Positions 45,469 through 64,000 of a stretch of DNA of 64,000 nucleotides are shown here, piece after piece. How positions within the stretch are numbered: the stretch's first letter is position 1; every line of letters starts with the position of its first letter. The notes below the pieces were generated by a model. The model did not search any database, was not told the origin of the DNA, and worked only from the letters and a program-made list of their open reading frames with translations. The stretch is from Thermocatellispora tengchongensis (GTDB lineage: Bacteria; Actinomycetota; Actinomycetes; Streptosporangiales; Streptosporangiaceae): NCBI RefSeq assembly GCF_014202315.1, contig NZ_JACHGN010000015.1, forward strand, positions 1 to 64,000, given 5' to 3'. The translations under genes and the position numbers were made by a program.

Positions 45469-46155
45469 ATGAAGGACCCCGCCATCGTCACCCGCCGACC
45501 GCGCCGCCGGCTCACCGCGCGAATGATCGTCGAGCACGCCATGCGGCTGGTGCGCGACGACGGCCTCCAGGCGGTGACGATGCGGCGCCTGGCGGACGAG
45601 CTCGGCACCGCGCCGATGTCGCTGTACCGCCACATCCCCGACCGCCAGGCGCTGATGGTGGCCATGCTGGACCAGGTCGCCCGCGACATCCGGTTCCCAC
45701 CGCCCGCGGGCGACCCGAGGGCCGAGATCACCGCCGTGCTCACCGCCATCCACGACGCCCTGCGCCGCGACTCCTGGGCGATCGGCCTGATCGTCACCGA
45801 CAAGCTCGCCGGTCCCTCGATCATCCCCGCCCTGGAGCGGCTGTTCGCCGCGTTGCGCCGTGCCGGCCTCACCCTGCGCGACACCCGCGTCGCGTTCGCG
45901 CTGCTGTGGCACTACACCGTCGGCGAGCTGCTGGACACCCACCTCGACATCCCCGACGACACCTACGCCCGCCGGATGGTCCACGACGTGGACCCCGAGA
46001 GCTACCCCACCCTCGCCGCCATCGCGCAGGCCGCGCCCGGCGGCCCGCCCGGCGACTGGTTCGCCGAGAACCTCCAGCGCCTCCTCGACGGGCTGCTGCC
46101 GCGGTCCCCCGCCGCCGATCGCCCGGCGGCCCCGGGCGAGGTGACGGCTCGGTGA
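45469..46155 (+). CDS. TetR-family regulator with TetR_C-type domain
   Basis: A 228-residue regulator with HTH LQAVTMRRLADELGTAPMSLYRHIPDRQALM, the wording of the TetR(B)-like subgroup, followed by a ligand domain containing LLWHYTVGELLD. It starts 40 bp after the ABC pair and may be co-transcribed. Its target is not evident; the same operon or a distant gene are both possible. Its stop lies in the left arm of a dyad shared with the converging TPP-enzyme gene. Confidence 0.88.
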   Translation: MKDPAIVTRRPRRRLTARMIVEHAMRLVRDDGLQAVTMRRLADELGTAPMSLYRHIPDRQALMVAMLDQVARDIRFPPPAGDPRAEITAVLTAIHDALRRDSWAIGLIVTDKLAGPSIIPALERLFAALRRAGLTLRDTRVAFALLWHYTVGELLDTHLDIPDDTYARRMVHDVDPESYPTLAAIAQAAPGGPPGDWFAENLQRLLDGLLPRSPAADRPAAPGEVTAR

Positions 46156-46170
46156 CGGCCGGCGGTCACC
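46151..46170. terminator. shared 3' dyad of converging genes
   Basis: GGTGAC (46151-46156) and GTCACC (46165-46170) form a 6-bp inverted repeat with an 8-nt loop. The TetR stop (46153-46155) and the TPP-enzyme stop (46166-46168) lie in opposite arms, as in the dyad at 2681-2696. Confidence 0.45.
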
Positions 46171-47803: not shown

Positions 47804-49185
47804 GAGCCGCCTCCGGTCAGGGGGAGCTGGATCGCCTTGTACTCGGTGAACTCCTCGATCCCGTAGCGGCCCTTCTCGCGTCCGGTGCCGGAGTGCTTGA
47901 CCCCGCCGAACGGCGCGAGCGGGTTGAACGGCCCGCCGTTCACGCTCACCTGCCCGGTGCGCAGCCGCCGCGCCACCGCCAGCGCCCGCTCCGGGTCCGC
48001 CGACCACACCGCGCCCGACAGCCCGTACGGCGTGTCGTCGGCGATCCGCACCGCCTCCTCCTCGCCCTCGTACGGGATCACGCACAGCACCGGCCCGAAG
48101 ATCTCCTCCCGCGCTATCGCCATGCCCGGATCGACGCCGCCGAAGACGGTCGGGCGCACGTAGAAGCCCCGGTCGAGGCCGGGCGGCGCATCGGGGCCGC
48201 CGGTCAGCAGCCGGGCCCCGGCGGCGGCGCCGCGGCGGATGTGGCCGGTGACCCGCTCGCGCTGCCGCGCGCTGATCACCGGGCCGAGGTCGGCGCCGGG
48301 GTCGTCGCGGTGACCGGGCCGGGCCGCGCCGACCAGGGCGGCGGCGCACTCCTCGGCCTCGGCCAGCCGGGACCGCGGCACCAGCAGCCGGGTCAGCGCG
48401 GTGCAGGTCTGCCCGCTGTTGCCGACCACCGTGCGGGCGCAGTGCGCGACCGCGGCGGGCACGTCGGCGTCGTCGAGCAGGATCGAGGCGGACTTGCCGC
48501 CGAGTTCGAGCAGCGACCTGGCGACGTTCCCGGCGGCCAGGGCCGCGACCCGCCGCCCGACGGCGGTCGAGCCGGTGAAGGAGACCACGTCCACGGCGGG
48601 GTGGCCGGCCAGGGCCTCGCCGGCCTCCGGCCCGGTGCCCGCGACCACCTGGAGCACGCCGCCGGGCAGTCCGGCGGCGGCCAGGGCGTCGGCCAGGACG
48701 AAGGAGTCGAGCGGGGTCAGCTCGCTGGGCTTGAGCACGACCGCGCAGCCCGCCGCCAGCGCCGGGGCGACCTTGTTCACGCTCTGCATCAGCGGGTAGT
48801 TCCACGGCGCGATGGCGGCGGCCACGCCGGCGGGCTCCCGGCGTACCAGGGAGTTGCCCACGCGTTCCTCCCAGGCCAGCTCCTCGGCGGCGTCGGCCGT
48901 GGTGCGCAGCGTGGTCAGCGCCGAGGCGATCTGCGTCGCCCGCACCAGGTGGCGGGGCAGGCCGAGCGGCATGGTGATCGCCTCGGCCAGCTCCGCGGTG
49001 CGCGCCTCCAGCTCGTCGGCGGCGCGGCGGAGCACCGCCGCGCGCTCGGCGACCGGCACCATGCTCCACGACTCGCGGGCCCGGCAGGCGCCGGCGACGG
49101 CGTCCTCCACCTCGGCCGCCGTCGCGGCGGGCACCTCGGCGAAGGGCTCGCCGGTGCACGGGTCGATCAGGGTCAGCCCTTCCAC
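47800..49185 (-). CDS. NAD(P)-dependent aldehyde dehydrogenase
   Basis: A 461-residue aldehyde dehydrogenase. PWNYPL and the loop FTGSTAVGRRV bind the cofactor; Glu in LLELGGKSA and Cys in GNSGQTCTALTR are catalytic; REEIFGPVLCVIPY and NPLAPFGGVKHSG complete the family pattern. It oxidises an aldehyde to the acid. Being between the importer gene and the TPP-enzyme gene in one transcript, it most likely acts on the aldehyde released by the latter. Its start lies within the last codons of the solute-binding gene. Confidence 0.92.
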   Translation of the reverse strand: MEGLTLIDPCTGEPFAEVPAATAAEVEDAVAGACRARESWSMVPVAERAAVLRRAADELEARTAELAEAITMPLGLPRHLVRATQIASALTTLRTTADAAEELAWEERVGNSLVRREPAGVAAAIAPWNYPLMQSVNKVAPALAAGCAVVLKPSELTPLDSFVLADALAAAGLPGGVLQVVAGTGPEAGEALAGHPAVDVVSFTGSTAVGRRVAALAAGNVARSLLELGGKSASILLDDADVPAAVAHCARTVVGNSGQTCTALTRLLVPRSRLAEAEECAAALVGAARPGHRDDPGADLGPVISARQRERVTGHIRRGAAAGARLLTGGPDAPPGLDRGFYVRPTVFGGVDPGMAIAREEIFGPVLCVIPYEGEEEAVRIADDTPYGLSGAVWSADPERALAVARRLRTGQVSVNGGPFNPLAPFGGVKHSGTGREKGRYGIEEFTEYKAIQLPLTGGGS

Positions 49186-50285
49186 TGGCGCGCTTCCTGC
49201 TCCACGGCCTTCTCGTCGAAGGCGTTGTACTTGCCGGCGAGGGAGTAGTCGAACAGGCCGCTGGACTTCACGTCGATCGCGGCGGGGATCATGCCGTGCT
49301 CGGCGAAGGCCGCGATGGTCTTCTGCACCGCGGCGTCGTCGATCACGCCGTACCGGCCGGAGGTGCCCTTGCCACCGGTGATGTCCAGCCGCAGCTTCAA
49401 GATCCGCACCGCCTGGGCGAGTGCGGTCTCCTCGGGCACGTCGGAGGCCGGGCGGGACTGCGGGAACTGCTTCCAGTGCAGCTTGATCGCGGCCTCCGGA
49501 TTGGTCTGGGAGAACACCATCGCCTTGTAGAACGCGCGCACCATGCCGGCCACCCGCTCCGGCTCCTGCTTGATCGACTCCTTGCGCACCACCAGGGCCG
49601 AGGTGCCGGTCATGTCGTTCAGCGGGGTCGGGATGTCGCGCATGGTGGTGCCGAGCAGGTCGCCGATGACCACGTTGGGCCCGTCCCAGCCGGCGTACGC
49701 GGCGATCTGCTTCTTGCGCAGCGCGTCGGCGGCCTGCGCGCCGAGACCGACGGGCAGGTACTGGGCGTCCTTGTCCGGGTCCAGGCCCGCCTCCTTCAGC
49801 ACCCCCTTGGCGAACAGGGTGGACACCCCGGCCAGCGAGTTGGACCCGATCGTGGCGCCCTTCAGGTCGGCCGCGGTCGTGATCGGGCTGTCCTGCGGGA
49901 CCACGACCCGGAAGATGCTGCCGTTGGTGAGCCCGACGACCGCGATGCCCGGGTCCTTCTGGTAGGCGGCGATGGCCGCGTTGAGCGAGGCGTACGTCAT
50001 GAACGCCTGTCCCGTGGCCACCGACTGGATGGCCGTCGGCGCGCTGTCCACCGGCTGGATCGTGACGTCGAGCTTCTCGGCCGAGAAGTAGCCGAGCTGC
50101 AGGGGCACGGAGGTGTACGACGCGGTGGTCGCGGTCAGCGCCTTGTCGGGCGCGGTGAAGACCACGGGCTCGGCGCCCGGGGTGGCGCTGTCGGCGCCGC
50201 CACCGCAGGCGGTGAGGGCCGCGCCGAGGGCGGTCAGGAGGGCGACGGCCGCGAGCCGCCGTGTGCCGAAGGAGAACGTGCTCAT
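49173..50285 (-). CDS. TauA/SsuA-type solute-binding lipoprotein
   Basis: A 370-residue lipoprotein (leader ends LTAC, Cys27) of the NMT1/TauA/SsuA fold: TTASYTSVPLQLGYFSAEKLDVTI, VATGQAFMTYASLNAA, DLKGATIGSNSLAGVSTLFAKGVL. These bind sulfonates, nitrate, pyrimidine precursors or aromatic acids outside the membrane. GGGAG precedes ATG 50285. With the permease and ATPase genes it makes a complete importer for the operon's substrate. Confidence 0.9.
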   Translation of the reverse strand: MSTFSFGTRRLAAVALLTALGAALTACGGGADSATPGAEPVVFTAPDKALTATTASYTSVPLQLGYFSAEKLDVTIQPVDSAPTAIQSVATGQAFMTYASLNAAIAAYQKDPGIAVVGLTNGSIFRVVVPQDSPITTAADLKGATIGSNSLAGVSTLFAKGVLKEAGLDPDKDAQYLPVGLGAQAADALRKKQIAAYAGWDGPNVVIGDLLGTTMRDIPTPLNDMTGTSALVVRKESIKQEPERVAGMVRAFYKAMVFSQTNPEAAIKLHWKQFPQSRPASDVPEETALAQAVRILKLRLDITGGKGTSGRYGVIDDAAVQKTIAAFAEHGMIPAAIDVKSSGLFDYSLAGKYNAFDEKAVEQEARQWKG

Positions 50286-50304
50286 GAAATCTCCCGGTGG
50301 GGGG

Positions 50305-51156
50305 TTACTGCGCCCGGCGTACCAGGCGTTCTGCGAGGGACAGGACGCCGTAGACGGCCAGTCCGAAGATCGACAGTGCGATGAGCATCGCGTACGTCGC
50401 CGCGACCTCACCGGTCACGGTGTACTGCGCGATCGCGTAGCCCACGCCCTCGCGCGCGGCCACGAACTCGCCGACGATCGCGCCGATGAGCGCGAGCACG
50501 GCGGCGCTGTTCAGCGCGGGGAAGATGAACGCCAGCGCGTTCGGGATGCGCAGGTAGCGCAGTTCCTGCCAGCGGCTGGCCCGCAGGGCGCGGAACAGGT
50601 TGACCTCGTCCTCGCTCACCTCGGTGAGGCCCGCGATCGTGTTGGTCAGCACGGGGAAGAAGGCCAGCAGCGCGGCCAGCGTCACCTTGGGCGCCAGGCC
50701 GTACCCCATGGCGGCCACGATGAGCGGCGCGATGGCGACCTTGGGGAAGGTCTGCGAGGCCAGGATGTAGGGGTAGACGGCGTTGCGCAGGATCGGCGAG
50801 AACGCGAACACCGAGCCGAGCACCACCGCCGCGGCCACCGCCAGCGCGAAGCCGAGCAGGGTCTCCTGCACGGTGGCCAGCAGGTTGGGCCACAGCGTGC
50901 CGTCGATGACCGCGAGCCGGACCAGCACCTCGATCACCTCACCGGGCGGGGCCAGGATCAGCGGCGAGACCAGCTCCGCGCTCGCCGCGCCCTGCCAGGC
51001 GGCGACGAGCACCACGAAGATCAGCACGGCGAGCACGGCGGACTTCAGCCCCGGTCCCTCCGCGCGCCGGCGCGGCGCCGCGCCGCCCTGGTCCAGCGCG
51101 CCGAGCGAGGCCAGGTCCGCCCGTGTCCCGCCGGACGGTGCGGTTCTCGTCTTCAT
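50305..51156 (-). CDS. TauC/SsuC-type ABC permease
   Basis: A 283-residue permease with six predicted helices. The coupling loop reads LFRALRASRWQELRYLRIPNALAFIFPAL, the EAA-type motif of SsuC/TauC, and WQGAASAELVSPLILAPPGEV is the usual outer loop. ATG 51156 is chosen because AGGAGG lies 6 nt upstream; ATG 51162 would leave no spacing. It forms the channel with the ATPase encoded 34 bp upstream. Confidence 0.92.
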   Translation of the reverse strand: MKTRTAPSGGTRADLASLGALDQGGAAPRRRAEGPGLKSAVLAVLIFVVLVAAWQGAASAELVSPLILAPPGEVIEVLVRLAVIDGTLWPNLLATVQETLLGFALAVAAAVVLGSVFAFSPILRNAVYPYILASQTFPKVAIAPLIVAAMGYGLAPKVTLAALLAFFPVLTNTIAGLTEVSEDEVNLFRALRASRWQELRYLRIPNALAFIFPALNSAAVLALIGAIVGEFVAAREGVGYAIAQYTVTGEVAATYAMLIALSIFGLAVYGVLSLAERLVRRAQ

Positions 51157-51190
51157 CGCCATCCTCCTTCCGGCGGGCCCGGCCGCCCGG

Positions 51191-52009
51191 TCACCGCCCG
51201 GCTCCCTTGGCCTCGTCGAGCACCGCGCGCACGTCCCGGATCGCCTCGTAGAACGCGGGGTCGTCGCGCAGCTCCCGCCCGCGCGGGCGCGGCAGCGGCA
51301 CGGGCAGGCTCGCGTGGATGCGGCCGGGCCTGGCGCTCATCACCACGATCCGGTCGGACAGGAACACCGCCTCGGAGATGCTGTGCGTGACGAACACCAC
51401 GGTCTTGGGCTCGCGCTGCCACACGCCGAGCAGCTCGTCGTTGAGGTCCTCGCGGGTGAACTCGTCCAGCGCGCCGAAGGGCTCGTCCATCAGCAGCAGC
51501 GAGGGCCGGTTGACCAGCGAGCGCGCGATGGCCACCCGCTGCTCCATGCCGCCGGACATCTCACGCGGGTAGTGCTTCTCGAAGCCGGCCAGCCCCATCA
51601 TCTCCAGCAGCCGCCTGGCGTGCTCGCGGCTCTCCGGACGCCGGTCGCCGTCGATGACCAGGGGCAGGCACACGTTGTCCAGCACGGTGCGCCAGCGCAG
51701 CAGGGTGGGCTTCTGGAACGCCACGCCCACCTGCGGCAGCGGTCCGGTGACGGGGGCGCCGTCCACGGTCACCGTGCCGGCGCTCGGCTCCAGCAGGCCC
51801 GCGATCAGCTTGAGCAGGGTGGACTTGCCGCAGCCGCTGGGGCCGATGAGCGAGACGAACTCGCCCGGCGCGATGTCCAGCGAGGCGTGCTCCAGCGCGC
51901 GCACCGTGGCGCCGCGCCGGGTGAAGACCTTGGACACGTCCCTGATCCCGATGGCCGCCGGGCGCGGCGGCGCCTGCGCGGCGGCGCGGTCGCCGGTCGT
52001 GATCGCCAT
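51191..52009 (-). CDS. TauB/SsuB-type ABC ATPase
   Basis: A 272-residue ATPase: Walker A GPSGCGKST, Q-loop VGVAFQKPTLL, signature MSGGMEQRVAIA (LSGGQ variant usual in this subfamily), Walker B LLLMDEPFGALDE and H-loop THSISEA. The wording is that of nitrate/sulfonate/taurine importers. AGGAG sits 6 nt before ATG 52009. It is preceded by the M19-like gene with only 3 bp between them. Confidence 0.93.
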   Translation of the reverse strand: MAITTGDRAAAQAPPRPAAIGIRDVSKVFTRRGATVRALEHASLDIAPGEFVSLIGPSGCGKSTLLKLIAGLLEPSAGTVTVDGAPVTGPLPQVGVAFQKPTLLRWRTVLDNVCLPLVIDGDRRPESREHARRLLEMMGLAGFEKHYPREMSGGMEQRVAIARSLVNRPSLLLMDEPFGALDEFTREDLNDELLGVWQREPKTVVFVTHSISEAVFLSDRIVVMSARPGRIHASLPVPLPRPRGRELRDDPAFYEAIRDVRAVLDEAKGAGR

Positions 52010-52012
52010 GTC

Positions 52013-53002
52013 TCACTCCTCGCCTGCCGGCCGGCCCGCGGGCAGGACCTCGTGGTAGAACCGCATCCAGTTGCCGCCCATGACTGCCGCCACCTCGCCG
52101 GGCGCGAAGCCGCGCCCGGCCAGCGCCTCGGCCAGGTCGGGGAAGGAGCGGGTGTCGGGGAACCAGGGCAGCGGCGGCTGCTTGCCGGGGTTGGCCGCCG
52201 AGCCCGCGCCGTACTGGACGGTCCGGGTCCAGCGGCCCTGTCGCATCCACCGCAGGTCCGCCTCGCCGATCTTGCGGCCCAGGTCTGAGCCGATGCCGAC
52301 GTGCTCGACGCCGATCAGGTCGGCGGTGCGCGCGACCAGCTCGGCCCAGGTGGCGGCGGTCGCGGCGTACTCGCCGCTGATGTTGCGGTAGCCCGACACC
52401 CCCAGGACGCCGCCGCGCGCCGCCAGGGCCTTGAGCAGGTCGTCGGACTTGTTGCGGGCGTGCGGCACCAGGGAGGCCGGGTTGGCGTGGGTGACCGCGA
52501 CCGGCACCGCGGAGTGCTCGATCGCCTCCATGCTCGTACGCTCGCCGACGTGCGACAGGTCGATCGCCATGCCGCACCGGTTCATCTCGGCCACGACCTC
52601 GCGGCCGAAGCGGGTCAGCCCGCCGTCCACCGGGTCGTAGCAGCTCGCGCCCACGTCGTTCTGGATGTTGTAGGTGAGCTGGGCCACGCGGACGCCGAGG
52701 TCGGCGAAGACCTCCACGTAGCCGATCCGGCCGGACAGGAACGAGCTGTTCTGGAAGCCCAGCAGCAGCGCCGTGCGCCCCTGGGCGTGGATCGCCTCGA
52801 TCTCGGCCGCCGTCGTCGCGACGCCGACCAGGTCGGCGTTGGCCCGCACCAGGTCGCGCCAGCGCACCAGCGCGTCCAGCGACTCGGTCGTGTCCTCCCA
52901 GAAGCCGCAGGTCACGGTCACGCAGCCGAGCCCGCCGCCGCGCAGCTCCTCGAAGACCTCGCGGTCGAACGCGCTGCACTCCAGGCCGTCAACGAAGATC
53001 AC
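52013..53002 (-). CDS. M19 dipeptidase-family protein with altered metal site
   Basis: A 329-residue TIM-barrel protein of the renal-dipeptidase (M19) family. DLSH (His151), VTHANP (His172) and IGSDLG (Asp240) are in place. The first ligand pair HxD, normally in DGHND, reads DGLEC (residues 5-9), and the bridging Glu reads Gln84 in LLGFQNSSFL. So the two-zinc site seems changed or reduced to one metal; I recall other M19-like proteins with the GFQN wording. It may hydrolyse an amide other than a dipeptide, or do another reaction. GTG 53002 overlaps the upstream stop by four bases; a longer frame upstream is not protein-like. Confidence 0.8.
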   Translation of the reverse strand: MIFVDGLECSAFDREVFEELRGGGLGCVTVTCGFWEDTTESLDALVRWRDLVRANADLVGVATTAAEIEAIHAQGRTALLLGFQNSSFLSGRIGYVEVFADLGVRVAQLTYNIQNDVGASCYDPVDGGLTRFGREVVAEMNRCGMAIDLSHVGERTSMEAIEHSAVPVAVTHANPASLVPHARNKSDDLLKALAARGGVLGVSGYRNISGEYAATAATWAELVARTADLIGVEHVGIGSDLGRKIGEADLRWMRQGRWTRTVQYGAGSAANPGKQPPLPWFPDTRSFPDLAEALAGRGFAPGEVAAVMGGNWMRFYHEVLPAGRPAGEE

Positions 53003-53679
53003 AGCGTCACCGCCAGGTAGTCGAGGTCGGTATCGGGGTCGGCGGCGTCCGGGTCGAGCGTGGCGCCCGCGTGCCGCCGCGAGAGCGGGGTGTCCTCGGT
53101 GAGCGCGCCGGTCGAGCGGTGGTACAGCCGCCACCACAGCGACGCCTCAACCTCCAGGCCCTCGTGCACCGTGCGCTCGATGTGCGGGCAGGCGGGCGGG
53201 CCGTGCCGCTCGGCGACCTCGATCCGGGGCGCGCCCGTGCCGAGGGTGACCGTGACGGCGCCGCCGTACGGCTGCGCGGCGTACGGGAGCGCGAGCAGCA
53301 GGTGCGGGACGGCGACGTCGCGCACCTCGATCCGCGCGCCGCCGCGCTCGCGCAGCAACGCCATGCCCAGGTCGAGCAGCGCCGGCGCGACGTACGGCGC
53401 GGGGACGCCGTGCGCCTCCACCACCACCGGCGAGGACGCCTCGTCCAGGGCCGGTGGCCGCCATCCGGGCAGGTCGCGGGCCGCGTCCAGGAACGCCAGG
53501 CCGCCCAGCCCGAGCGCCTCGGCCTCCACCACCAGGTCCCGCACCGCGGGGACCGCCCCCTTGGGCACCCCCAGCAGCAGCAGGTTCCGCTCGGCCAGCA
53601 CGCGGGTCTCCCGCAGGCTCACGGTGAGCCGGGGCGCCGCGGCGGCGTCCGTCGCCTGAGTGGTACTCGGCGGGGTCAC
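52999..53679 (-). CDS. uncharacterised protein, possibly DUF3726-like
   Basis: A 226-residue protein I cannot assign. The N-terminal part LTVSLRETRVLAERNLLLLGVPKGAV followed by DLVVEAEALGLGGLAFL resembles the start of DUF3726 proteins, but this is from memory and weak. Then come VEAHGVPAPYVAPALLDLGMALL and a beta-rich tail. It has no membrane helix or signal. GTG 53679 has GGGAGG upstream and overlaps the IclR stop; the next gene overlaps its own stop. Tight coupling says it acts with the M19-like protein and importer. Confidence 0.7.
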   Translation of the reverse strand: MTPPSTTQATDAAAAPRLTVSLRETRVLAERNLLLLGVPKGAVPAVRDLVVEAEALGLGGLAFLDAARDLPGWRPPALDEASSPVVVEAHGVPAPYVAPALLDLGMALLRERGGARIEVRDVAVPHLLLALPYAAQPYGGAVTVTLGTGAPRIEVAERHGPPACPHIERTVHEGLEVEASLWWRLYHRSTGALTEDTPLSRRHAGATLDPDAADPDTDLDYLAVTL

Positions 53680-54434
53680 TGTCGCCTCCCTTCCGTCGCG
53701 GGGTGCCCGGAGAGCACCCGGTTGATCTCCCGCACCGCGTCCAGCAGCGCGTGGATGCCCTTGTCCCGGTCGAAGCGGCCGCTCGGCCCGGCGACACTGA
53801 GCGCGCCGACGCACCTGCCCTGCAGGTCGAACACCGGGGCCGCGATGCCGAGCACCCCTTCCAGCCACCGGCCGTGCGAGGTCGCGTAGCCCAGCTCGCG
53901 CACCTGCGCCAGCTCCTCCTCCGGCGGCGTGTCCACGCCCAGCTCGCGCAGCTCGGCGAGCTGGCGCGGGCTCGCGTACGCCATCAGCACCCGGCCCGAG
54001 GCACTGCGGCTGAGGGGCATCTGGGCCTCGGCCCGCAGGTCCACCTGGAGCGGGCGGCCCGGCTCGATGCGCTGGATGATCGTGGCGGTGCCGCGTTCGA
54101 GTATCGCCAGCGACACGGCCTCCCTGATCTCGTCCACCAGCCGCTCCATCATGGGCAGCACCCGCTCGCCGAGCCCGGCCTGACGCAGCGCCGACTGGCC
54201 GATGCGGGCCGGGCGCAGCGTCAGCCGGTAGGAGCCGTCGCCGGTCTGCTCCATCCATCCGGCCGCCACCAGCGTGACGAGCTGCTGGTGCACGGCCGCA
54301 CGCGGGATGCCCAGGCTGCGCGACAGCTCCGAGATCCGCACCGAGCTCTCGGCCTCGGCGACGACCTCCAGCATCTTCAGGCACTTGATCGCGGTGCTGA
54401 GCGGCTGGGTCCGCGGTCCCGCCTGCTCGCTCAC
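53676..54434 (-). CDS. IclR-family regulator
   Basis: A 252-residue regulator. The winged HTH is about 13-75 (VRISELSRSLGIPRAAVHQQLVTLVAAGWM), and the GAF-like effector domain ends with FDLQGRCVGALSVAGPSGRF. IclR proteins sense small acids or aromatic metabolites of the pathway they control. It is the second gene of the nine-gene operon (GTGA overlap with the first), so it likely regulates itself; the dyad at 56163-56186 is the candidate operator. Confidence 0.9.
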   Translation of the reverse strand: MSEQAGPRTQPLSTAIKCLKMLEVVAEAESSVRISELSRSLGIPRAAVHQQLVTLVAAGWMEQTGDGSYRLTLRPARIGQSALRQAGLGERVLPMMERLVDEIREAVSLAILERGTATIIQRIEPGRPLQVDLRAEAQMPLSRSASGRVLMAYASPRQLAELRELGVDTPPEEELAQVRELGYATSHGRWLEGVLGIAAPVFDLQGRCVGALSVAGPSGRFDRDKGIHALLDAVREINRVLSGHPATEGRRQ

Positions 54435-56146
54435 TTCTCGCTCCCGGACAGGGCCGGCTCGGCCGGGTGCCACCAGCCGCGCGGGTCGGCGCCGGCCAGC
54501 TCCTCGCGCGAGGGCGCGCCCTGGAAGATCAGGCCGCGCAGGGTGCGGTTCAGGAAGTCCTTGGTACGGTCCAGCCCGTAGAAGGCGGCGTTGGCCAGCC
54601 TGATGATGTGCACCGGGACGAAGTCGAGGTCCAGCATGTCCATCCGCGGCAGCGCGTACGGCTGCTCGCGCAGCGCCTGGAGGCGCTCCACCGCGGCCCG
54701 CTCCTCCGGATGGTCGAACAGGACCCGGCCGACCCGCGTGCCCGGAGGGTAGCCGGCCAGCAGCCGGGTGAGCCGCCGTACGTCGCCGGGGATGTCGCAG
54801 GACAGGTCGAACCCGCCCGGGAACTGCTCGCGGGGCCCCGAGCGGGGCTCCTCGGCCGCGCGCGACTTGTACCAGACGCGGGTGCGCCTGGACCGGTCGG
54901 CGAGCGGCATGTCGTGCGCCCAGGCGTAGGTGCCGCGCAGCAGCGCCGACAGCTCCCCGGTGGTCATGCCCGGGTCGCCGACCAGCCGCTCGTCCACGAT
55001 CAGGCGCTCCAGCGCGTCCTCGGCGCCGTCGGGCAGCAGCTCCAGCAGCAGCGAGCCGAGGGTCTCCTCCGTCTCCGGCGTCACCGTGCCGGCGACCGCG
55101 GTGCGCAGCTCCTCGAACGGCGTCGCGGACGCCCGGCCGCGCACGGTGCCCCGGTCGCGCAGCTCGGCGGCGAGGTCGCGCACCTCGCGCAGCTCGGCGG
55201 CCACCCGGCGGCCGTCGGGGAAGACGTTGTAGCGCATGGGGTCCTGCTCGCGGTAGACGATCTCCCGCTCCAGCAGGTCCACCAGCGTGCCGTACGCCGG
55301 GTCGCCGGGCGCGGGCGCGAGGCGGCGGGCCTCGGCCAGCGCGTCCTCACGCAGGCGCAGCCACTGGTGCACCATGCGCGGATGGTTGGCGATGAACAGC
55401 ACCAGCCCGAGCGCCGACCCGTTGCCCAGCCCGAGGTGCCTGCGGATCGCCGGGTCCAGCCGGGCGGCTCGCGGCGACGCGGCCCGCGCCAGGTGCTCGC
55501 ACAGGTCCGCGGCGAACTCCCGCATCAGGTACGCCGTGAGCATCTGCGCGTGATAGGGCGCGGCCAGCGGGTGCGCGGACCCATAGGAGAGGAAGGTGCG
55601 GGTGCCGAACGTGCCGTTGGCGTCCAGCCCGGTGTTGCGCATGAGGTAGCCCGCCTGGCGCAGCACGCCCAGGTCGGGGGCGCGCCCCGCGGCCAGCGCC
55701 TCGACGGTGTGGCCGAAGGCCCGCAGGCTCCGGTTGGACCGGCACCACACCAGCGTGCCCGGGGCCGCGCGGCCGGCGTACAGCTTGGGCAGCTCGGCGC
55801 CGGTCAGCTCGACGCGCGCGGCGTCCGCCTCGCCCTCCAGCAGCGCGCCGACCATGTCCCAGCTCTGGCCGATGATCCGCGGCGTGCGCTCGACGAAGCG
55901 CGGCTCGGAGCTGTAGGCCACGAACGAGAGCGTGCCGGCGTGCGTCGCGACCCGGTAGACCGCGACGCCGTTGCCGCGCTCGTCCAGGTCGAACCGCTCC
56001 CGGGTGATCGTCCACCGGTTCCGTACCATGTGCCGGACCAGCGACCGGCTCGCGCTGAACCGCGAGGGCTGCAACGCCGCCAGGCGCTCCGGCCTCATCA
56101 GGAAATCAGGATCACGGGGACCTATCGTCTGCGGATCGCCACTCAT
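54431..56146 (-). CDS. uncharacterised 571-residue protein leading a catabolic operon
   Basis: A large soluble protein with no domain I recognise. No signal peptide or membrane helix is visible. Distinct segments are RHMVRNRWTITRERFDLDERGNGVAVYRV, GTLSFVAYSSEPR, TRTFLSYGSAHPLAAPYHAQMLTAYLMREF, VLFIANHPRMVHQWL and MDMLDLDFVPVHIIRLANAAFYGLDRTKDFLNRTL. The conserved-looking His, Arg and Tyr clusters suggest an enzyme. ATG 56146 has AAGGGTG upstream, and the sequence before it is not protein-like. It overlaps the IclR start by four bases and is the promoter-proximal gene of nine, so it is likely central to the pathway. Confidence 0.8.
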   Translation of the reverse strand: MSGDPQTIGPRDPDFLMRPERLAALQPSRFSASRSLVRHMVRNRWTITRERFDLDERGNGVAVYRVATHAGTLSFVAYSSEPRFVERTPRIIGQSWDMVGALLEGEADAARVELTGAELPKLYAGRAAPGTLVWCRSNRSLRAFGHTVEALAAGRAPDLGVLRQAGYLMRNTGLDANGTFGTRTFLSYGSAHPLAAPYHAQMLTAYLMREFAADLCEHLARAASPRAARLDPAIRRHLGLGNGSALGLVLFIANHPRMVHQWLRLREDALAEARRLAPAPGDPAYGTLVDLLEREIVYREQDPMRYNVFPDGRRVAAELREVRDLAAELRDRGTVRGRASATPFEELRTAVAGTVTPETEETLGSLLLELLPDGAEDALERLIVDERLVGDPGMTTGELSALLRGTYAWAHDMPLADRSRRTRVWYKSRAAEEPRSGPREQFPGGFDLSCDIPGDVRRLTRLLAGYPPGTRVGRVLFDHPEERAAVERLQALREQPYALPRMDMLDLDFVPVHIIRLANAAFYGLDRTKDFLNRTLRGLIFQGAPSREELAGADPRGWWHPAEPALSGSEK

Positions 56147-56162
56147 AGCACCCTTGTCTTGA

Positions 56163-56186
56163 TATTTCAGACAACGTTCTGATATA
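56163..56186 (-). promoter_or_regulatory. candidate IclR operator
   Basis: TATTTCAGA (56163-56171) and TCTGATATA (56178-56186) are an inverted repeat matching at 8 of 9 positions with a 6-bp spacer, 17 bp before the start of the 571-residue gene. The AT-rich patch stands out from its GC-rich surroundings. TTGTCA, the complement of 56189-56194, could be the -35. Confidence 0.6.
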
Positions 56187-56483
56187 CATGACAATAGGAG
56201 ACCGCTAGGCGCCCGCACAAGGGGTGACCGCCGATCGACTCTTCGCGCCCGCTCGGCCACGGCGACGAGACGTACCGGGAGGTGTGCCGGAATCCCGGCG
56301 GCGGGCCGCTCCCCGGCAGCCCGGGTTCTCCGCCCCGTCGGGCCACCCGGATCGCACGGCGGCCCGCACGCACGCGGCCGGCGCCGGATGCGTACCGGCA
56401 GCGACAGGTCCGCGGCGCACGGCCGCGGACCCGCATGAATCACGCCGAGACGGGCCGCTCGGGTGGCGGCCCGTGACCGGCGC
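56187..56483. other. intergenic DNA without a recognisable gene
   Basis: GC-rich sequence between the nine-gene operon's promoter and the end of the CBS gene. Both flanking genes run leftward, so it holds the 3' region of the CBS transcript. I see no credible coding frame and no strong terminator here. Confidence 0.5.
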
Positions 56484-56918
56484 TCAGGCCGGTGCGTAGA
56501 CCCGGTGGACGAACTCGGCGAGCTTGTCGTCGGGCAGTTCCTTGGCCAGGTCGGCTTCGCTGACCATGCCGACGATCCGATGATTGTCGATCACGGGCAG
56601 GCGCTTGATCTGGTGCTGCTCCATCTTCTGCAGCGCCTCCTCGACACTGCTGTGGGCGTCCACCCACACCAGTCCCTTGGCCAGTTCGCCGGCCGTGGTC
56701 CGATCGAGATCCTTGCCCTCGGCGCAGCACTTGATCACGATGTCCCGGTCGGTGATGATGCCCTTGAGCCGGTCGTCGTCTCCGCAGATCGGCAGCGCGC
56801 CGACCGACAGGTCGCGCATCATCTGCGACGCCAGGCGCAGGGTGTCATGCTCGCCGATGCACACCGCCCCCTGGTGCATCACGTCCTGAACCGCCTTGCC
56901 GATTCCCGATGTGTCCAT
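56484..56918 (-). CDS. tandem CBS-domain protein
   Basis: A 144-residue protein made of two CBS motifs: about 8-65 (DVMHQGAVCIGEHDTLRLASQMM...GIITDRDIVIKC) and 75-133 (GLVWVDAHSSVEEALQKMEQHQIKRLPVID...GMVSEADLAKEL). Together they form a Bateman module that binds adenine nucleotides and senses energy state. Stand-alone CBS proteins of this size are common in actinobacteria. The partner is unknown. Confidence 0.93.
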   Translation of the reverse strand: MDTSGIGKAVQDVMHQGAVCIGEHDTLRLASQMMRDLSVGALPICGDDDRLKGIITDRDIVIKCCAEGKDLDRTTAGELAKGLVWVDAHSSVEEALQKMEQHQIKRLPVIDNHRIVGMVSEADLAKELPDDKLAEFVHRVYAPA

Positions 56919-57224
56919 GATCGGCCTCCCCCGGCATCGATGAACGGTGTCTCACTGCCGCCCCTACCCAACGGACGCCGGATCAGCGGGGCACGGCCAT
57001 TCGGACATCAACGCAGGTCGAATCAGGCGAATGAGCCCGGCACGGCCGTGACCGGGAACGCCGGGGAGAGCCGCGCTTCCCTCGGCTATCCGTCCGGCCG
57101 CCCGTGGGCAATACCCGGCCGGTCTTTCCTATCGCCGGATTCGACCTTTCGATGCGCCCGGCCGAGCCCGCGAATCCCGGATATAACAAACGAGGCAAGT
57201 CGGGCCGAGGAGAGGACCTTGGAC
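56919..57224. other. divergent intergenic region between CBS and P450 genes
   Basis: No gene is visible in these 306 bases. TATAAC at 57183-57188 is a possible -10 for the rightward P450 pair, with AGGAGAGG at 57208-57215 as its ribosome-binding site. No convincing dyad was found. Confidence 0.4.
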
Positions 57225-58436
57225 GTGTCGGCTGAACCACAGGTCGTGTTCGACGCCTTCCACCCCGCTCACCGATCCAATCCCTACCCCCGTTACGCGG
57301 CCGTCCGCGAATACACCGCGCTGTATCCGCTGAAACCCGGTATCCACCTGGCCACGCGGTACGCCGAGGTCTCCGCCGTGCTCGCGGACCCGGAGTGGGG
57401 ACATGGCTACGAGGACGGAATCAACCCGTTCCGGCCCGGAGTGGCCGCCGACGACGTGCCGGGCGGGATCGTGCGGATGGACCCGCCCCAGCACACGCGG
57501 GTGCGCGCCCTGGTCAACCGGCCCTTCACCCCGCGCAACACCGAAAAGCTCCGCTCCCGGGTCGAACGCCGGGTCAACGAGCTGCTGGACCAGGCCCTGG
57601 AGGCCGGTGAGGTCGACCTGATGGAGGCGTTCGCCCGGCCGGTCCCGTTCACCATCATCGCCGAGATGCTCGGCATTCCGCCCGAGGACTACCGCCAGGT
57701 CATGAAATGGTCGCTGGCGCTCGTTCACGGCACCGATCCCGACATTCTCCAGACGCCGGAACAACTGGCGCAGCGCGACAAGGCCAATGCCGAATTCGAG
57801 GCGTATTTCGCGGACCAGATCGAGCGGCGGCGGGAAACGCGGCGGGACGACATGTTCAGCGATATGGCCGAGGCGCTGGAATCCGGTGCCGCGACCGGGG
57901 CCGAGCTGCGCGGGCTCTGCGTCGCGCTGCTGATCGGAGGGTACGAGACCGCCGCCGACCTGATCGGCAAAGGCGTCGTGGCGCTGCTCCGCGACCCGGC
58001 CCAGATGACGCTGTGGCGGGAACGCCCGGAACTGGCCCCGTCCGGCACCGAGGAACTGCTCCGCTACGAGCCGCCCATCCAGCTCACGCACCGCGTGGCG
58101 CTCAGGGACAAGGAGCTGGCCGGGCACACCTTCGCCCGCGGCGACGGCGTGGTGATCGTCATGGCCGCCGCCAACCGCGACCCGGCCGTGTACGCCGACC
58201 CCGACCGCCTCGACATCACCCGGTTCGCCGGGACCGCGCCCCCGCCGCGCCCGCTCTCGTTCGGCGGCGGCGTCCACTTCTGCCTCGGCGCCCACCTCGG
58301 CAAGCTCGAAGTGCGACTGGCGGTGGACGCGCTGCTGCGCCGCGCACCGGCGCTGGCCCTGGCCGGCGAACCCGTCTGGCGCGACACCGTCGCCATCCAC
58401 AGCCTCGACACCCTCCCGGTCCGCCTGCGGGCGTGA
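57225..58436 (+). CDS. cytochrome P450
   Basis: A 403-residue P450 with GGYET (238-242) at the I-helix, where the usual first residue Ala is Gly and His is Tyr; ExxR at Glu277-Arg280; and haem loop FGGGVHFCLG with Cys353. Its start, FDAFHPAHRSNPYPRYAA, is very like the P450 half of the next protein, so the two look like tandem paralogues. GTG 57225 (9 nt after AGGAGAGG) is preferred to TTG 57219. It precedes the fusion gene by 44 bp and is probably co-transcribed. No ferredoxin gene is adjacent. Confidence 0.92.
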   Translation: MSAEPQVVFDAFHPAHRSNPYPRYAAVREYTALYPLKPGIHLATRYAEVSAVLADPEWGHGYEDGINPFRPGVAADDVPGGIVRMDPPQHTRVRALVNRPFTPRNTEKLRSRVERRVNELLDQALEAGEVDLMEAFARPVPFTIIAEMLGIPPEDYRQVMKWSLALVHGTDPDILQTPEQLAQRDKANAEFEAYFADQIERRRETRRDDMFSDMAEALESGAATGAELRGLCVALLIGGYETAADLIGKGVVALLRDPAQMTLWRERPELAPSGTEELLRYEPPIQLTHRVALRDKELAGHTFARGDGVVIVMAAANRDPAVYADPDRLDITRFAGTAPPPRPLSFGGGVHFCLGAHLGKLEVRLAVDALLRRAPALALAGEPVWRDTVAIHSLDTLPVRLRA

Positions 58437-58480
58437 GCGGACCTCCCTGCGATCAGCCTTGCGACGAGAGTGAGGACGCG

Positions 58481-60169
58481 ATGAGCGTGGACCAGACCGA
58501 GACGTCACGGCAGCGCCGGCTGCGCGAGCTGAGGTCCCTCGTGGAGCACGGGATCGACGCGGGCATCGGCGTCGGCCACTCGCTGGGCGTCCTGCTCGAC
58601 ACCCTGGAGGAGGGCCGCACCGTCTGGACGCTCACGCCCTCCCCGGCGGCGGCGGGCACGCCACGCACCGTGCACGGCGGAGTGATCGCCACGCTCCTGG
58701 ACACCGCGATGGGCAGCGCCGTGTACACGGCGATCCCGGACGGGGCGCTCTACACGACGCTGGAGCTGAAGGTGAACTTCTTCCGCCCGGTCCCGCTCGA
58801 CGGCGGCCCGCTCACCTGTGCCGCCACGGTCGTCCACCAGGGCGAGCGCACCGCGACCGCGGAAGGGCGCGTCACCGACGCCGGTGGTGAGCTCATCGCG
58901 CACGGCACGACGACCTGCATGGTGTTCCCGCCCACCGGTACGCCCGGCGCGGAGCCCGCCGCTCCGCCCAACCCGGGCGTCGCCCTCGACGCGTTCGACC
59001 CCGCGCACTGGCCGGACCCGTACCCCCGGTACGCCGCGGCGCGCGAGGCGGCGCCGCTGATCGCGACCCCGCTGGGCGTCCACCTGGTGACCCGCTACGA
59101 CGACTGCGCGGCGATCTTGCAGGACAACGACTGGAGCCACGCCCACGAGGCCGAGCTGTTCCACCCCGGCGTCGAGCACGCCGACCTGCCGACCTCGTTC
59201 CTGTGGATGGACCCGCCCGACCACACCCGCCTGCGGGGGCTGGTCAGCAAGGCGTTCACCCCCCGTACGGTGGCCGCCCTGCGGCCCCGCATCGAGCAGC
59301 TCGTCAAGGAGCTGTTCGACGCGATCGTCGAGGCGGGCGAGGTCGATGTGATCACCGCGCTGGCCTACCCGCTGCCGCTGACCGTCATCGCCGAACTGCT
59401 CGGCGCGCCCGCCGAGGACCACCCCGACCTCCAGCGCTGGTCCCGGGCGCTGGCCCGCGGGTTCGACCCCGACCCGCTGCTGCTGCCGCGGGAGCGGGAC
59501 GAGCGCACCCAGGCCGCGCGGGAGTTCGTGTCCTACTTCCGGGACCTGATCGCGAAGCGGCGGGCGCGGCCGGCCGGCGACCTGATCAGCGCGCTGGCCG
59601 CGGTCGAGGAGCGGGGCGACGTGCTTACCGAGGACGAGATGCTCGCCACCTGCGTCACGCTGCTGGTCGCCGGGCACGAGACCAGCGTCAACCTCGTCGC
59701 GAACGGCATCCTGGCGCTGATCCGCAACCCCGGCCAGTACGCGCTGCTGCTCGACGACCCGCGGCTCGCCGCCCCCGCCGTGGAGGAGATGCTGCGGTAC
59801 GACTCGCCGGTGCACATGACCACCCGGCTGGCCCACAAGGAGACGCGGATCGCCGGCCACACCTTCCGGCCGGGCGACGGCGTGGTGCTGCTGTTCGGCT
59901 CGGCCAACCGCGACCCGGCGGCGTTCCCCGACCCCGACCGGTTCGACATCACCCGGTACGCCGGCTCCGCCCCCGTGAAGCGCCACCTCAGCTTCAGCCT
60001 GGGCATCCACTACTGCCTCGGGGCGCCCCTGGCCCGGCTCGAAATGGAGATCGTGCTGCAGGAGCTGATCCGGCGCCGGCTCACCATGACGATGACCACC
60101 GAGAACCTGCCCTACCGCCGCAACCTCGTCCTGCGCGGCATCGACACCTTCCCCGTGCGCTTCGCGTAG
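58481..60169 (+). CDS. hotdog thioesterase-cytochrome P450 fusion
   Basis: One 562-residue frame with two enzymes. Residues about 25-148 are a PaaI-type hotdog thioesterase: HGGVIATLLDTAMG (65-78), LELKVNFFRPVP, and GELIAHGTTTCMVF. A Pro/Ala-rich linker (about 150-165) leads to a complete P450: DAFDPAHWPDPYPRYAA, AGHETS (397-402), ExxR at Glu436-Arg439, and FSLGIHYCLG with haem Cys512. No stop or frameshift interrupts the join. A plausible job is oxidation of an acyl-thioester substrate followed or preceded by its release. ATG 58481 has GTGAGGA upstream. Confidence 0.93.
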   Translation: MSVDQTETSRQRRLRELRSLVEHGIDAGIGVGHSLGVLLDTLEEGRTVWTLTPSPAAAGTPRTVHGGVIATLLDTAMGSAVYTAIPDGALYTTLELKVNFFRPVPLDGGPLTCAATVVHQGERTATAEGRVTDAGGELIAHGTTTCMVFPPTGTPGAEPAAPPNPGVALDAFDPAHWPDPYPRYAAAREAAPLIATPLGVHLVTRYDDCAAILQDNDWSHAHEAELFHPGVEHADLPTSFLWMDPPDHTRLRGLVSKAFTPRTVAALRPRIEQLVKELFDAIVEAGEVDVITALAYPLPLTVIAELLGAPAEDHPDLQRWSRALARGFDPDPLLLPRERDERTQAAREFVSYFRDLIAKRRARPAGDLISALAAVEERGDVLTEDEMLATCVTLLVAGHETSVNLVANGILALIRNPGQYALLLDDPRLAAPAVEEMLRYDSPVHMTTRLAHKETRIAGHTFRPGDGVVLLFGSANRDPAAFPDPDRFDITRYAGSAPVKRHLSFSLGIHYCLGAPLARLEMEIVLQELIRRRLTMTMTTENLPYRRNLVLRGIDTFPVRFA

Positions 60170-60180
60170 CCCCGGGCTCG

Positions 60181-60223
60181 GGCGCGGCCGCGACGGCTTC
60201 CCGCCGGCGCGGCCGCGCCGTTT
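60181..60223 (+). terminator. hairpin after the fusion gene
   Basis: GGCGCGGCCGCG (60181-60192) pairs perfectly with CGCGGCCGCGCC (60208-60219), a 12-bp stem with a 15-nt loop, followed by GTTTC. It lies 11 nt after the P450-fusion stop. Confidence 0.7.
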
Positions 60224-60284
60224 CGCGCGCCAGTCCTCCCGCCGCATTGACGCCTCGTGACTTCCTGGGTACCGTCATACCTAC

Positions 60285-60311
60285 TTTTAATAAACCTTCC
60301 TAATAATTAGG
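60285..60311 (+). promoter_or_regulatory. chitinase upstream AT-rich dyad
   Basis: CCTAAT-A-ATTAGG (60299-60311) is a perfect 6-bp inverted repeat in an AT-rich island that begins at TTTTAATAAA. On the other strand it reads TTAGGAAGGTTTATTAA, a style of box seen before secreted glycoside hydrolases in actinobacteria (from memory). No DasR box was found. From 60312 to 60494 nothing else stands out. Confidence 0.5.
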
Positions 60312-60494
60312 TGTCAACGCCCAGGTGGGAAGGGGTGAGTCCATGCCGCGCGCACCACCGACGGCGGTGGATGACGTGCCGTTGGGGGGCCATGAGTGAG
60401 CGGGGACCGCGCGGGCCCGGCTCACCACCACATCACCGATGTCCACACGTAACAGCCCATCTCGCATCGGCATATGGGACGTGGAGCAGCACAC

Positions 60495-62213
<1,719 letters not shown>

Positions 62214-62223
62214 CCGGTGACCC

Positions 62224-62267
62224 GGCCGGGTTCCCCCGTCCCCGCGTGGGTACCGGGGAACCCGGCC
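62224..62267 (+). terminator. long hairpin after the chitinase
   Basis: GGCCGGGTTCCCC (62224-62236) and GGGGAACCCGGCC (62255-62267) form a perfect 13-bp stem with an 18-nt loop, 10 nt after the stop. There is no T-run. The remaining bases to 62446 show no gene. Confidence 0.65.
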
Positions 62268-62446
62268 CCCACGCACGAGATCGCGGAGAGGCGCGCGGTA
62301 CTGGCGGATTCGGCACGCCCCGGTTACGGTGCTCCCATGCCGGGTTGACGCTAGAGGATCGGCGGCCCCACGTGGCCGCGCGCTCCGCCTTCCGCCGTTT
62401 CGGAACACCCGACCAGGAATCCGCAACGGAACGGAAGGCGACGCAC

Positions 62447-62902
62447 ATGGAGATCAGACGGATTCACGAGCACGAGGGCGAGACGGTCGGCGGTCTGTGG
62501 GACCGCATGTGCCGCGAGATCGAGGACGGCGGACCGCTTTCGGAGCAGGGGCTGAGGAACCTCTCGCGCCTGCTCGCCATGTCCGCATGGCACCGCGACG
62601 CGTTCTGCCTGGTGGCCGTGGACGACGACGAGATCATCGGGTTCGTCAACGGCTGCACCACCGCCGAGAACGGGCTGCTGCCCGGCCTCGGCGGCCAGAT
62701 CGACTCCCTGTACGTCGTGCCCGGCAGGCGCGGCGGCGGGGTGAGCCGCGCCCTGGCGCGGGCCGCCGTCGCGTGGCTGCGGGAGCACGGGGCAGGCACG
62801 ATCCGCTACCTGTCGTGCGCCGGCGCCCACGACGACCACCGGTTCTGGCAGGGCCTGGGCTTCGAGCCCGACATGGTGTGCCTGTCGCTGTACCGGGACT
62901 GA
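62447..62902 (+). CDS. GNAT-family N-acetyltransferase
   Basis: A 151-residue GNAT protein. Strand/loop segments are FCLVAVDDDEIIGFVNGC, then QIDSLYVVPGRRGGGVSRALARAAVAWL, which carries the acetyl-CoA loop (R/QxxGxG/A reads RRGGGVS), and DDHRFWQGLGFEPDMVCLSL at the end. The acceptor is unknown. GGAAGGCG lies just upstream of ATG 62447. It stands alone. Confidence 0.85.
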   Translation: MEIRRIHEHEGETVGGLWDRMCREIEDGGPLSEQGLRNLSRLLAMSAWHRDAFCLVAVDDDEIIGFVNGCTTAENGLLPGLGGQIDSLYVVPGRRGGGVSRALARAAVAWLREHGAGTIRYLSCAGAHDDHRFWQGLGFEPDMVCLSLYRD

Positions 62903-62915
62903 CGACCGGGGACCC

Positions 62916-62947
62916 GGGTCAGCGGGTCAGCAGGTCAGCGGGTCAGC
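62916..62947 (-). repeat. 8-bp tandem repeat encoding the end of the fusion gene
   Basis: Four units of (G/A)GGTCAGC run from 62916 to 62947. On the minus strand each has TGA; the 8-bp period puts these in all three frames. The stop of the SDR/hydrolase gene is in the second unit (62927-62929), and its last residues (PLTC) are coded by the repeat. Confidence 0.85.
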
Positions 62948-64000
62948 GGCGGCAGGTGCCCGGCCGAGGACCCGCGCCACCTGGGCCGGATGGGTGAGCT
63001 GCGGATAGTGCCCGGCACCGGCGATCTCGGTGACGGGGTGCGCGACGCCGAGGGTGAGCGGGTCGGCCGATCCCACGACGATCTCGACCGGCACGCTCAC
63101 CCGGTCCAGCAGCGCCCGTGACCGCTCGCGCCCGGCGAGATCCGCGCGCAGCGCCGTGACCACCCGCCGTGCCACACCGGGACGGCGCAGGTCCGCCGCG
63201 GCGCCGGCCACCTCCGGCGTCTCCGGAAGGCCGAGCGTCGCGGCCAGGCGGGCCGCGGACATGCGGCGCAGCATCGGCACGGCCAGGCCGGAGCGGGCGA
63301 GCCGCGAGGCGGGGCGCTGCAGGAACGACGGCGAGATGAGCACCAGCCCGCTGACGCGCTCCGGATGCGCGGCGGCGAAGCGGAGCGCGGGCCCGCAGGC
63401 CAGCGAGTGCGCGACGAGCACGGGCCGGGTCCGCACCGGGCTCAGCAGGCCGGCCAGCCACACGTCCACCGGCCGGGCGGACGGGGCCGAACGTCCCAGG
63501 CCGGGCAGGTCGGGGGCCAGGACCGGGCCGGGGAGGCGGGCGGCGAGCGGTGTCCAGAGGCCGGCGTTCATCGGCAGCCCGTGCAGCAGCACATGCGCGG
63601 GCGTGCGCGCCTCACCGGTCACCCAGGTACGGCTGCCCGCCACGTCGCGGAAGCCGTACGGGGTCGGCCCCGGCGACGCGGCGCCGAAGCGGGTGGCCAC
63701 CAGGTGGTCGGCCCACGCGCGCAGGGCGTCGGCGGCAGGGGGCATCTCCAGCCCGGCGGCCGCGGCGAGGGCGCGGGCGGAGGCCGTCGGGTACCTGTCG
63801 GCCGAGAGGAACGACAATGTCTCGGGCTCGGCGCCGGTGATCGCGCGCGGCAGCCGGCGCAGGAGGGCGGCGGGCACGGTACGGCGCGGCGCCCGCACGC
63901 CCATGTGCTCCGCGACCGTCCTGATCAGCTCGGGCAGGAGAGGGGTGTCGTCGTCGAGCACCCAGTGGTGCTCGCCCGGGGGCGCTGCGGGGATCTCCGC
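62927..64000 (-). CDS. SDR epimerase-alpha/beta hydrolase fusion, 5' part beyond window
   Basis: The last 357 residues of a larger protein; the frame is open at the right edge. The first part (EHHWVLDDDTPLLPELI...GLEMPPAADALRAWADHL) is the C-terminal region of an extended SDR, as in NAD-dependent epimerases. An alpha/beta-hydrolase domain follows: HVLLHGLPMNAGLW (oxyanion loop), nucleophile elbow VAHSLACGP (Ser, with the flanking Gly residues replaced by Ala), Asp in VGSADPLT and His in GAGHYPQLTHP. Both halves look intact. The function is unknown; SDR plus hydrolase fusion suggests processing of a lipid or polyketide-like ester. Confidence 0.82.
   Translation of the reverse strand, partial: AEIPAAPPGEHHWVLDDDTPLLPELIRTVAEHMGVRAPRRTVPAALLRRLPRAITGAEPETLSFLSADRYPTASARALAAAAGLEMPPAADALRAWADHLVATRFGAASPGPTPYGFRDVAGSRTWVTGEARTPAHVLLHGLPMNAGLWTPLAARLPGPVLAPDLPGLGRSAPSARPVDVWLAGLLSPVRTRPVLVAHSLACGPALRFAAAHPERVSGLVLISPSFLQRPASRLARSGLAVPMLRRMSAARLAATLGLPETPEVAGAAADLRRPGVARRVVTALRADLAGRERSRALLDRVSVPVEIVVGSADPLTLGVAHPVTEIAGAGHYPQLTHPAQVARVLGRAPAAADPLTC

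Follow-up and report, generated by a model that had tools for sequence, protein, structure and literature searches.

A hotdog thioesterase fused in frame to a cytochrome P450 in Thermocatellispora tengchongensis, a candidate tailoring-and-release enzyme of an actinobacterial lipid pathway

The window, which here means the whole stretch of 64,000 nucleotides of Thermocatellispora tengchongensis that was analysed, carries two adjacent genes on the plus strand, one for a cytochrome P450 and, directly downstream of it, one in which a hotdog thioesterase (TE) is joined through a linker to a second P450. The features of this pair are as follows.

57225 to 58436, plus strand: upstream partner P450, termed P1, of B type, with a GTG start chosen by homology; it matches PF00067 and has orthologues in five other fusion loci.
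58437 to 58480, plus strand: gap of 44 nt between P1 and the fusion gene, with GAGTGAGGA (58468 to 58476) as the likely ribosome-binding site, read by eye in the sequence.
58481 to 60169, plus strand: fusion gene for hotdog thioesterase, linker and cytochrome P450, 562 aa, as given by the translation, the profile matches and five fusions elsewhere.
58481 to 58933, plus strand: TE domain, residues 1-151, with H65-G66-G67 and D74 as the putative catalytic Asp (TIGR00369, PF03061 and residue conservation).
58934 to 58978, plus strand: Pro/Ala-rich linker of 15 residues (152-166), placed by its variability in six fusions and by a pLDDT below 50 at 154-158.
58979 to 60166, plus strand: P450 domain, residues 167-562, with AGHET at 397-401, E436xxR439 and haem Cys512 (PF00067, PDB matches and VIA).

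Elsewhere in the window a selenocysteine tRNA is predicted at 14259-14351, and a protein of about 555 aa at 54431-56098 (longest frame 670, which was scanned) had no Pfam match at E up to 0.001. The next gene downstream of the fusion, at 60474-62213, looks chitinase-like by eye from its DGIDIDWEYP motif.

The initial annotation had claimed that a TE and a P450 are encoded in one frame at this place, and this was borne out, as 58481-60169 translates to 562 residues with zero internal stops and both domain profiles score over their cut-offs; HGGV at 65-68, AGHET at 397-401, E436xxR439 and Cys512 also lie at the residues that it had given. The G+C content at third codon positions is 0.92-1.00 in each 50-codon block of the gene, the junction block included. 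An internal start at the junction yielding a free P450 was rejected because codons 150-172 hold no ATG, GTG or TTG, and no stop lies among them either. Neither a stop nor a frameshift was found at the junction, and relatives do not have separate genes only, since the fusion recurs in five other genomes, in proteins that share 79-82% identity with that of the window. The frame runs intact through the junction in these five genomes and therefore no stop or frameshift was missed; an assembly error or hidden frameshift was likewise rejected on the five further fusions and the even codon composition. The six fusion proteins align without gaps in the linker, and their pairwise identity is 76-99% in the TE, 80-94% in the P450 and 41-94% in the linker, with 98 of 140 positions invariant in the TE (residues 12-151), 289 of 396 in the P450 (167-562) and 4 of 15 in the linker. 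Over all 15 pairs Ka/Ks is 0.01-0.33 for the TE and 0.09-0.27 for the P450, and by these ratios both domains are under purifying selection. This selection on both domains, together with the conservation in six genomes, indicates that the fusion is selected and not an artefact.

In the genus of Amycolatopsis sp. GM8 the fusion was found in 2 of 19 genomes (GM8 and G356; E limit 1e-120), in the genus of Nocardia sp. alder85J in 3 of 150 (alder85J, G386 and G466; E limit 1e-130) and in the window's family in 1 of 341, the window's own (E limit 1e-90), and among 394 genomes drawn from the class the window's own was the only fusion at E up to 1e-145. In the family, Nocardia-genus and class searches 3 to 9 candidates, the best in each genome, were scored, and with limits this strict more diverged fusions may be missed; the family and class genome sets overlap. 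Thus the idea that the fusion is confined to one genome holds inside the window's family (1 of 341 at the limits used) and fails outside it. When the best 80 of 566 relatives of the TE were scanned on their genome contigs with the TE alignment, the TE frame entered a P450 in two (GM8 and alder85J), and in the other 78 the TE was unfused, its frame stopping within 18 codons past the TE match. A plasmid-borne fusion was rejected, as among 72,556 plasmid records no single place covers 80% of the protein, and P450 matches that align into the TE half of the query were rejected as further fusions, since a sample of 14 such or neighbouring loci (L203-L209 and L230-L236) had no TE at E up to 1.

The TE domain matches the hotdog thioesterase model TIGR00369 over residues 34-148 with 75.6 bits against a cut-off of 36.6, and 4HBT PF03061 over residues 63-139 with 62.5 bits against a cut-off of 20.6. 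None of H65, G66, G67 and D74 varies among the six fusions, nor in an alignment of 15 sequences, and D74 was equated by eye, on the motif, with Asp61 of E. coli PaaI, which is proposed as catalytic in the portion of PMC516016 available. Among the proteins of solved structure that are related to the TE in sequence are BH2602, PaaI and THEM-like acyl-CoA thioesterases. The fold assignment rests on the sequence profiles, the structure model and one match in a viral-library structure search, where a PaaI HGG thioesterase stood at rank 18; no TE fold was among the 50 matches listed in each of the two PDB fold searches (Foldseek and VIA), both of which are filled by P450s. On profiles and residues the domain is judged to be an intact PaaI-like hotdog thioesterase. 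It was rejected as the PaaI of phenylacetate breakdown, since it scores 30.3 bits on the PaaI model TIGR02286 (hydroxyphenylacetyl-CoA thioesterase), under the equivalog cut-off of 118.9. Hotdog proteins are generally oligomeric, and the domain might instead be a non-catalytic scaffold, serving to bring the P450 into oligomers or to dock it on an acyl carrier protein (ACP). FapR, given as a non-catalytic member of the hotdog superfamily in the same portion of PMC516016, offers an example, but such a role is very improbable considering that HGG and D74 are identical in 6 of 6 fusions and invariant in the 15 aligned sequences, that Ka/Ks of the TE does not exceed 0.33, and that in four genomes, drafts among them, the fused TE is the sole copy of its family found.

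The P450 domain scores 109.6 bits on PF00067 against a cut-off of 22.8, and E400, T401, E436, R439 and C512 are shared by all six fusions, so that by profile and motifs it is an intact P450. Among the NCBIfam P450 models matched at E of 0.01 or below none reaches its cut-off (PentlenlactSyn, for example, with 194 against 700). All 60 PDB sequence matches listed are P450s and start at residue 151 or beyond, and the nearest by sequence among them is CYP164A2 of Mycobacterium smegmatis. CYP164A2, CYP107P2, CYP107A1 (EryF) and PksS, which are 45, 42, 41 and 40% identical to the fused P450 in the fold alignment, rank near the top of the solved P450s by score in the sequence matches listed, and their solved chains are P450 alone. 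At the window start, at about 858-2063, there is another P450 which is 45% identical to the fused one. The structure model, made from a 68-row alignment with 2 rows misplaced, has a mean pLDDT of 91.7, and the sole segment below 50 is residues 154-158; it suggests two folded domains joined by a flexible tether. In the VIA fold search the complexes of P450BioI with acyl-ACP (PDB 3ejb, 3ejd and 3eje) took the top three rows, with a best Z of 50.4 and an rmsd of 1.8 over 379 residues at 38% identity, and CYP109Q5, CYP109A2 and CYP142 came within 1.4 Z units of them. Foldseek, ordered by E-value, placed CYP107P2, vdh and DmlH first and the P450BioI entries at ranks 4 and 5. P450BioI is the acyl-ACP P450 of biotin synthesis and was solved with acyl-ACP bound, but unlike the window fusion it is stand-alone and has no thioesterase. 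It performs C-C cleavage, and such chemistry is not implied for the fusion.

Each of the other five fusion loci has an orthologue of P1 (74-81% by blastp), which stands directly upstream of the fusion in alder85J, G386 and G466 and one P450 further up in GM8 and G356. In GM8, G356 and alder85J the nearest gene of a ligase/diiron/ACP cassette lies within 5 kb of the fusion, and this first cassette consists of an AMP-ligase, FerA, HotdogB, an ACP, a CMAS-like methyltransferase and FerB, the FerB of GM8 lying beyond the stretch fetched. A second cassette, which begins within 5 kb of the fusion in alder85J, G386 and G466, holds a membrane-type desaturase, a second ACP, a second CMAS-like methyltransferase, a P450 and another AMP-ligase. 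In the window genome the P1-fusion pair is on contig C15, and no cassette genes were recognised around it in the window (44000-63900); the cassette is on contig C28, next to a TE that shares 60% identity with the fused one and a P450 pair with 56-57 and 49% identity.

G000:C28:20000-39900 (L029:7984-16324): cassette of the window genome with TE and P450 pair, comprising AMP-ligase, FerA, HotdogB, ACP, CMAS-like methyltransferase and FerB.
L029:12401-13189: FerA, 262 aa, with 70-87% identity to its counterparts in six other genomes.
L195:3196-8353, L198:15795-19901 and L199:12800-18338: second cassette in the Nocardia fusion loci, by BLAST naming and family searches.

The neighbour genes were called by a codon-composition script and took their names from BLAST hits in a single reference set, and their starts are therefore approximate. 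Family searches, with a single representative per gene, placed the CMAS-like methyltransferase in PF02353 and FerB in PF03405 (FA_desaturase_2), and the cassette ligases in PF00501, with the nearest FAAL/FadD and acyl-CoA-ligase models all under cut-off. HotdogB fell just under the PF03061 cut-off, and given these below-cut-off matches the 'FAAL'-type ligase and HotdogB names are working labels. FerA is ferritin-like, with weak rubrerythrin/ferritin matches only and no Pfam or NCBIfam cut-off reached. Besides HotdogB, an alpha/beta thioesterase in one locus (L169) is a candidate thioesterase of the cassettes.

Among the best 80 of the 566 TE relatives, at least two of five cassette genes lay in the flank beside the TE in 49 loci, at identity floors of 42% for the ligase and 45% for CMAS, and short flanks lower this count; GM8 was scored as being without a cassette though one is seen near its fusion. 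The cassette genes stood beside the TE in all 36 Nocardia loci of these 80, and also in Frankia, Protofrankia, Amycolatopsis and Actinokineospora. The remaining 31 loci include 17 of Actinomadura, one of Spirillospora and one of another actinomycete, and the 12 of these 19 cassette-less TEs that were included in the TE tree form a clade of their own at 100/100. In Actinomadura loci such as L114 and L123 the TE is 56-62% identical to the fused TE, and the examined flank has neither cassette nor P450. FerA, taken as the marker of the cassette, is present in 9 of 9 genomes with the fused P450 or a close unfused orthologue and in just 3 of 341 genomes of the window's family, and a TE of the fusion's family is likewise present in 9 of 9 genomes with this type of P450 (E limit 1e-25). 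In four of the six fusion genomes (GM8, G356, alder85J and G466) the fused TE is the only one found, several of these genomes being drafts, the window genome and G386 have a fused and a separate TE, and G607, G750 and G826, whose P450 is unfused, have a separate TE only. The unfused P450s of these three are 78-84% identical and have a short or low-complexity N-terminal tail with no TE domain; the G750 locus matches Frankia sp. CiP1 (100% over 3423 nt), and the G607 and G826 loci are nearest to Frankia nepalensis, at about 85%. Such co-occurrence of TE, P450 and cassette is what one would expect of two activities at work in a single pathway, and within Nocardia it says little because the cassette is common there anyway.

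In a quick tree of 59 rows, which gave long-branch warnings, the fused P450s and the P1 orthologues are two separate clades, each at 100. The fused P450s and three Frankia-like unfused orthologues make a clade of nine at 100/99, and with unfused orthologues added the six fused P450s fall on one side of a branch with 64/99 support; the fused TEs group at 93/52 in a TE tree of 53 rows, 10 each of them from Nocardia and Actinomadura. A single fusion event is likely on these trees, whose supports of 93/52 and 64/99 are compatible with one gain of the TE as well as with a loss in Frankia. The P1-fusion pair of the window has 78.5% DNA identity to that of alder85J over 2982 nt, and the spread of the pair over distant genera suggests that it moved by transfer. 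The unfused genes come in three arrangements: three loci of Amycolatopsis and Streptomyces himastatinicus have P450(A)-P450(B)-TE, Parafrankia has TE-P450(A), and three Frankia-like genomes, which are the nearest to the fused P450s, have P450(B)-P450(A) and no TE. In all three Parafrankia loci the stop codon of the TE overlaps by 4 nt what may be the start of the A-type P450, and from operon coupling of this kind it may be only a short way to fusion. It could be that the fusion serves co-expression only, the two activities sharing a pathway and acting uncoupled on different molecules or at different steps, with the TE clearing mis-loaded ACP, for example, or freeing a substrate ahead of the P450. 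Such an arrangement would fit with the Parafrankia overlap, with unfused relatives having the same gene set, with a linker that is variable and weakly predicted, and with the three close P450 orthologues that have no TE attached, but the frame and the position of the linker are kept across three genera and four of the six genomes yielded no TE of this family besides the fused one, and we regard co-expression alone as rather unlikely.

The reading that we prefer, and hold with middling confidence, is that the fusion would be an enzyme with two functions, tailoring and release, in an AMP-ligase/ACP lipid pathway of the dissociated type, its P450 acting on acyl-ACP and its TE releasing the product. 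In such a pathway the ligase would load a fatty acid onto the small ACP, and the desaturase-like diiron proteins, the CMAS-like methyltransferase and the P450s would modify the carrier-bound chain. The fused P450, if it is of the acyl-ACP type like P450BioI, would then oxidise the chain with electrons from redox partners presumably encoded elsewhere, and the N-terminal hotdog TE would hydrolyse the oxidised acyl-ACP, so that oxidation would be coupled to release; the P450 may be carried on a hotdog oligomer, with several P450s per oligomer. More tentatively, and as a narrower claim that we think somewhat less probable than its alternatives taken together, the protein may represent a new enzyme architecture, a 'self-releasing' P450 in which a single polypeptide, borne on the hotdog oligomer, couples oxidation and thioester cleavage of an ACP-bound fatty chain and so closes an actinobacterial lipid pathway of ligase, ACP, diiron, CMAS and P450-pair genes. 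What the sequences show directly is that the two domains share one frame, that this frame is conserved and under selection with its motifs intact, which genes accompany it, and that it co-occurs with cassette and TE. Beyond that we infer the substrate, ACP as the carrier, oxidation as the first reaction, the electron supply, the oligomer, channelling and the need for the covalent link.

The initial annotation had suggested that one chain both oxidises an acyl-thioester and releases it. The motifs, the purifying selection, the TE relatives beside ligase/ACP cassettes and the fold matches to P450BioI with acyl-ACP are in favour of this, but the covalent link is dispensable to the P450, since three close orthologues lack a TE, and to that extent the suggestion is weakened. 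Against the preferred reading stand the location of the window's P1-fusion pair on another contig than the cassette, the separate TE and second P450 pair which the window genome has beside its C28 cassette, the other candidate thioesterases of the cassettes, the identity of only 38% to P450BioI, which is nearly tied with other P450s, and the kinship of the TE to acyl-CoA thioesterases. It is by gene neighbourhood only that ACP appears favoured over CoA as the carrier. An acyl-CoA route, in which the fusion would act in breakdown or lipid remodelling on acyl-CoA with the TE as a PaaI/THEM-like acyl-CoA hydrolase, could draw on the PaaI and THEM-like acyl-CoA thioesterases among the solved relatives of the TE, on a FadD-like acyl ligase near some cassettes, and on the cassette ligases matching FAAL and acyl-CoA-ligase models alike, all under cut-off. 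We nevertheless consider this route improbable, because the recurrent neighbours of the fusion among the flanking genes classified are an AMP-ligase, an ACP, a desaturase and a methyltransferase, and because the score on TIGR02286 is 30.3 against 118.9 bits.

Known P450 fusions are mostly with redox partners, CYP102 and CYP116B being self-sufficient examples. In these the P450 is likewise part of a longer natural fusion, whereas in the window fusion it is joined to a hydrolase and would take its electrons from outside. A literature search of titles and abstract openings found no P450-thioesterase (P450-hotdog) fusion, a coverage that does not establish its absence in print. The closest precedent in the sources as available is PgnH, a desaturase-thioesterase didomain of polyyne synthesis that corresponds to two separate proteins, CayE and CayF, and the product is lost when pgnH is removed, as it is on removal of cayE or cayF (PMC8406139, in the part available). 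Like the window fusion, PgnH unites an enzyme that oxidises a fatty chain with a thioesterase in a ligase/ACP/desaturase pathway, and its parts are separate in the sister cluster. It differs in that its partner is a desaturase, and the window fusion has no desaturase domain of the PgnH kind, its partner being a P450; the likeness is to a thioesterase and does not imply a hotdog fold, and the PgnH pathway as described in that part has no CMAS-like methyltransferase and no P450 pair. The same part of PMC8406139 gives 10 actinobacterial genomes (Streptomyces, Micromonospora and Amycolatopsis) in which a P450 gene seems to have taken the place of those for the thioesterase and the rubredoxin in the polyyne cluster. 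Hotdog 'Rosetta' fusions, namely LpxC-FabZ, HAD-hotdog and hotdog-3HCDH, are described in the available text of PMC516016, in which the words 'P450' and 'cytochrome' are absent and none of the hotdog fusions is with a P450; like the window fusion, they join a hotdog to an enzyme that elsewhere is an operon neighbour.

If the preferred reading is true, the fusion would tie a P450 to an acyl-carrier pathway and would provide a one-chain tool that both oxidises and frees a carrier-bound lipid. Read in the manner of the 'Rosetta' fusions, it leads one to expect cooperation between the TE and P450 genes that stand apart in many clusters of Nocardia, Frankia and Amycolatopsis, and it points to a conserved actinobacterial lipid gene cluster.
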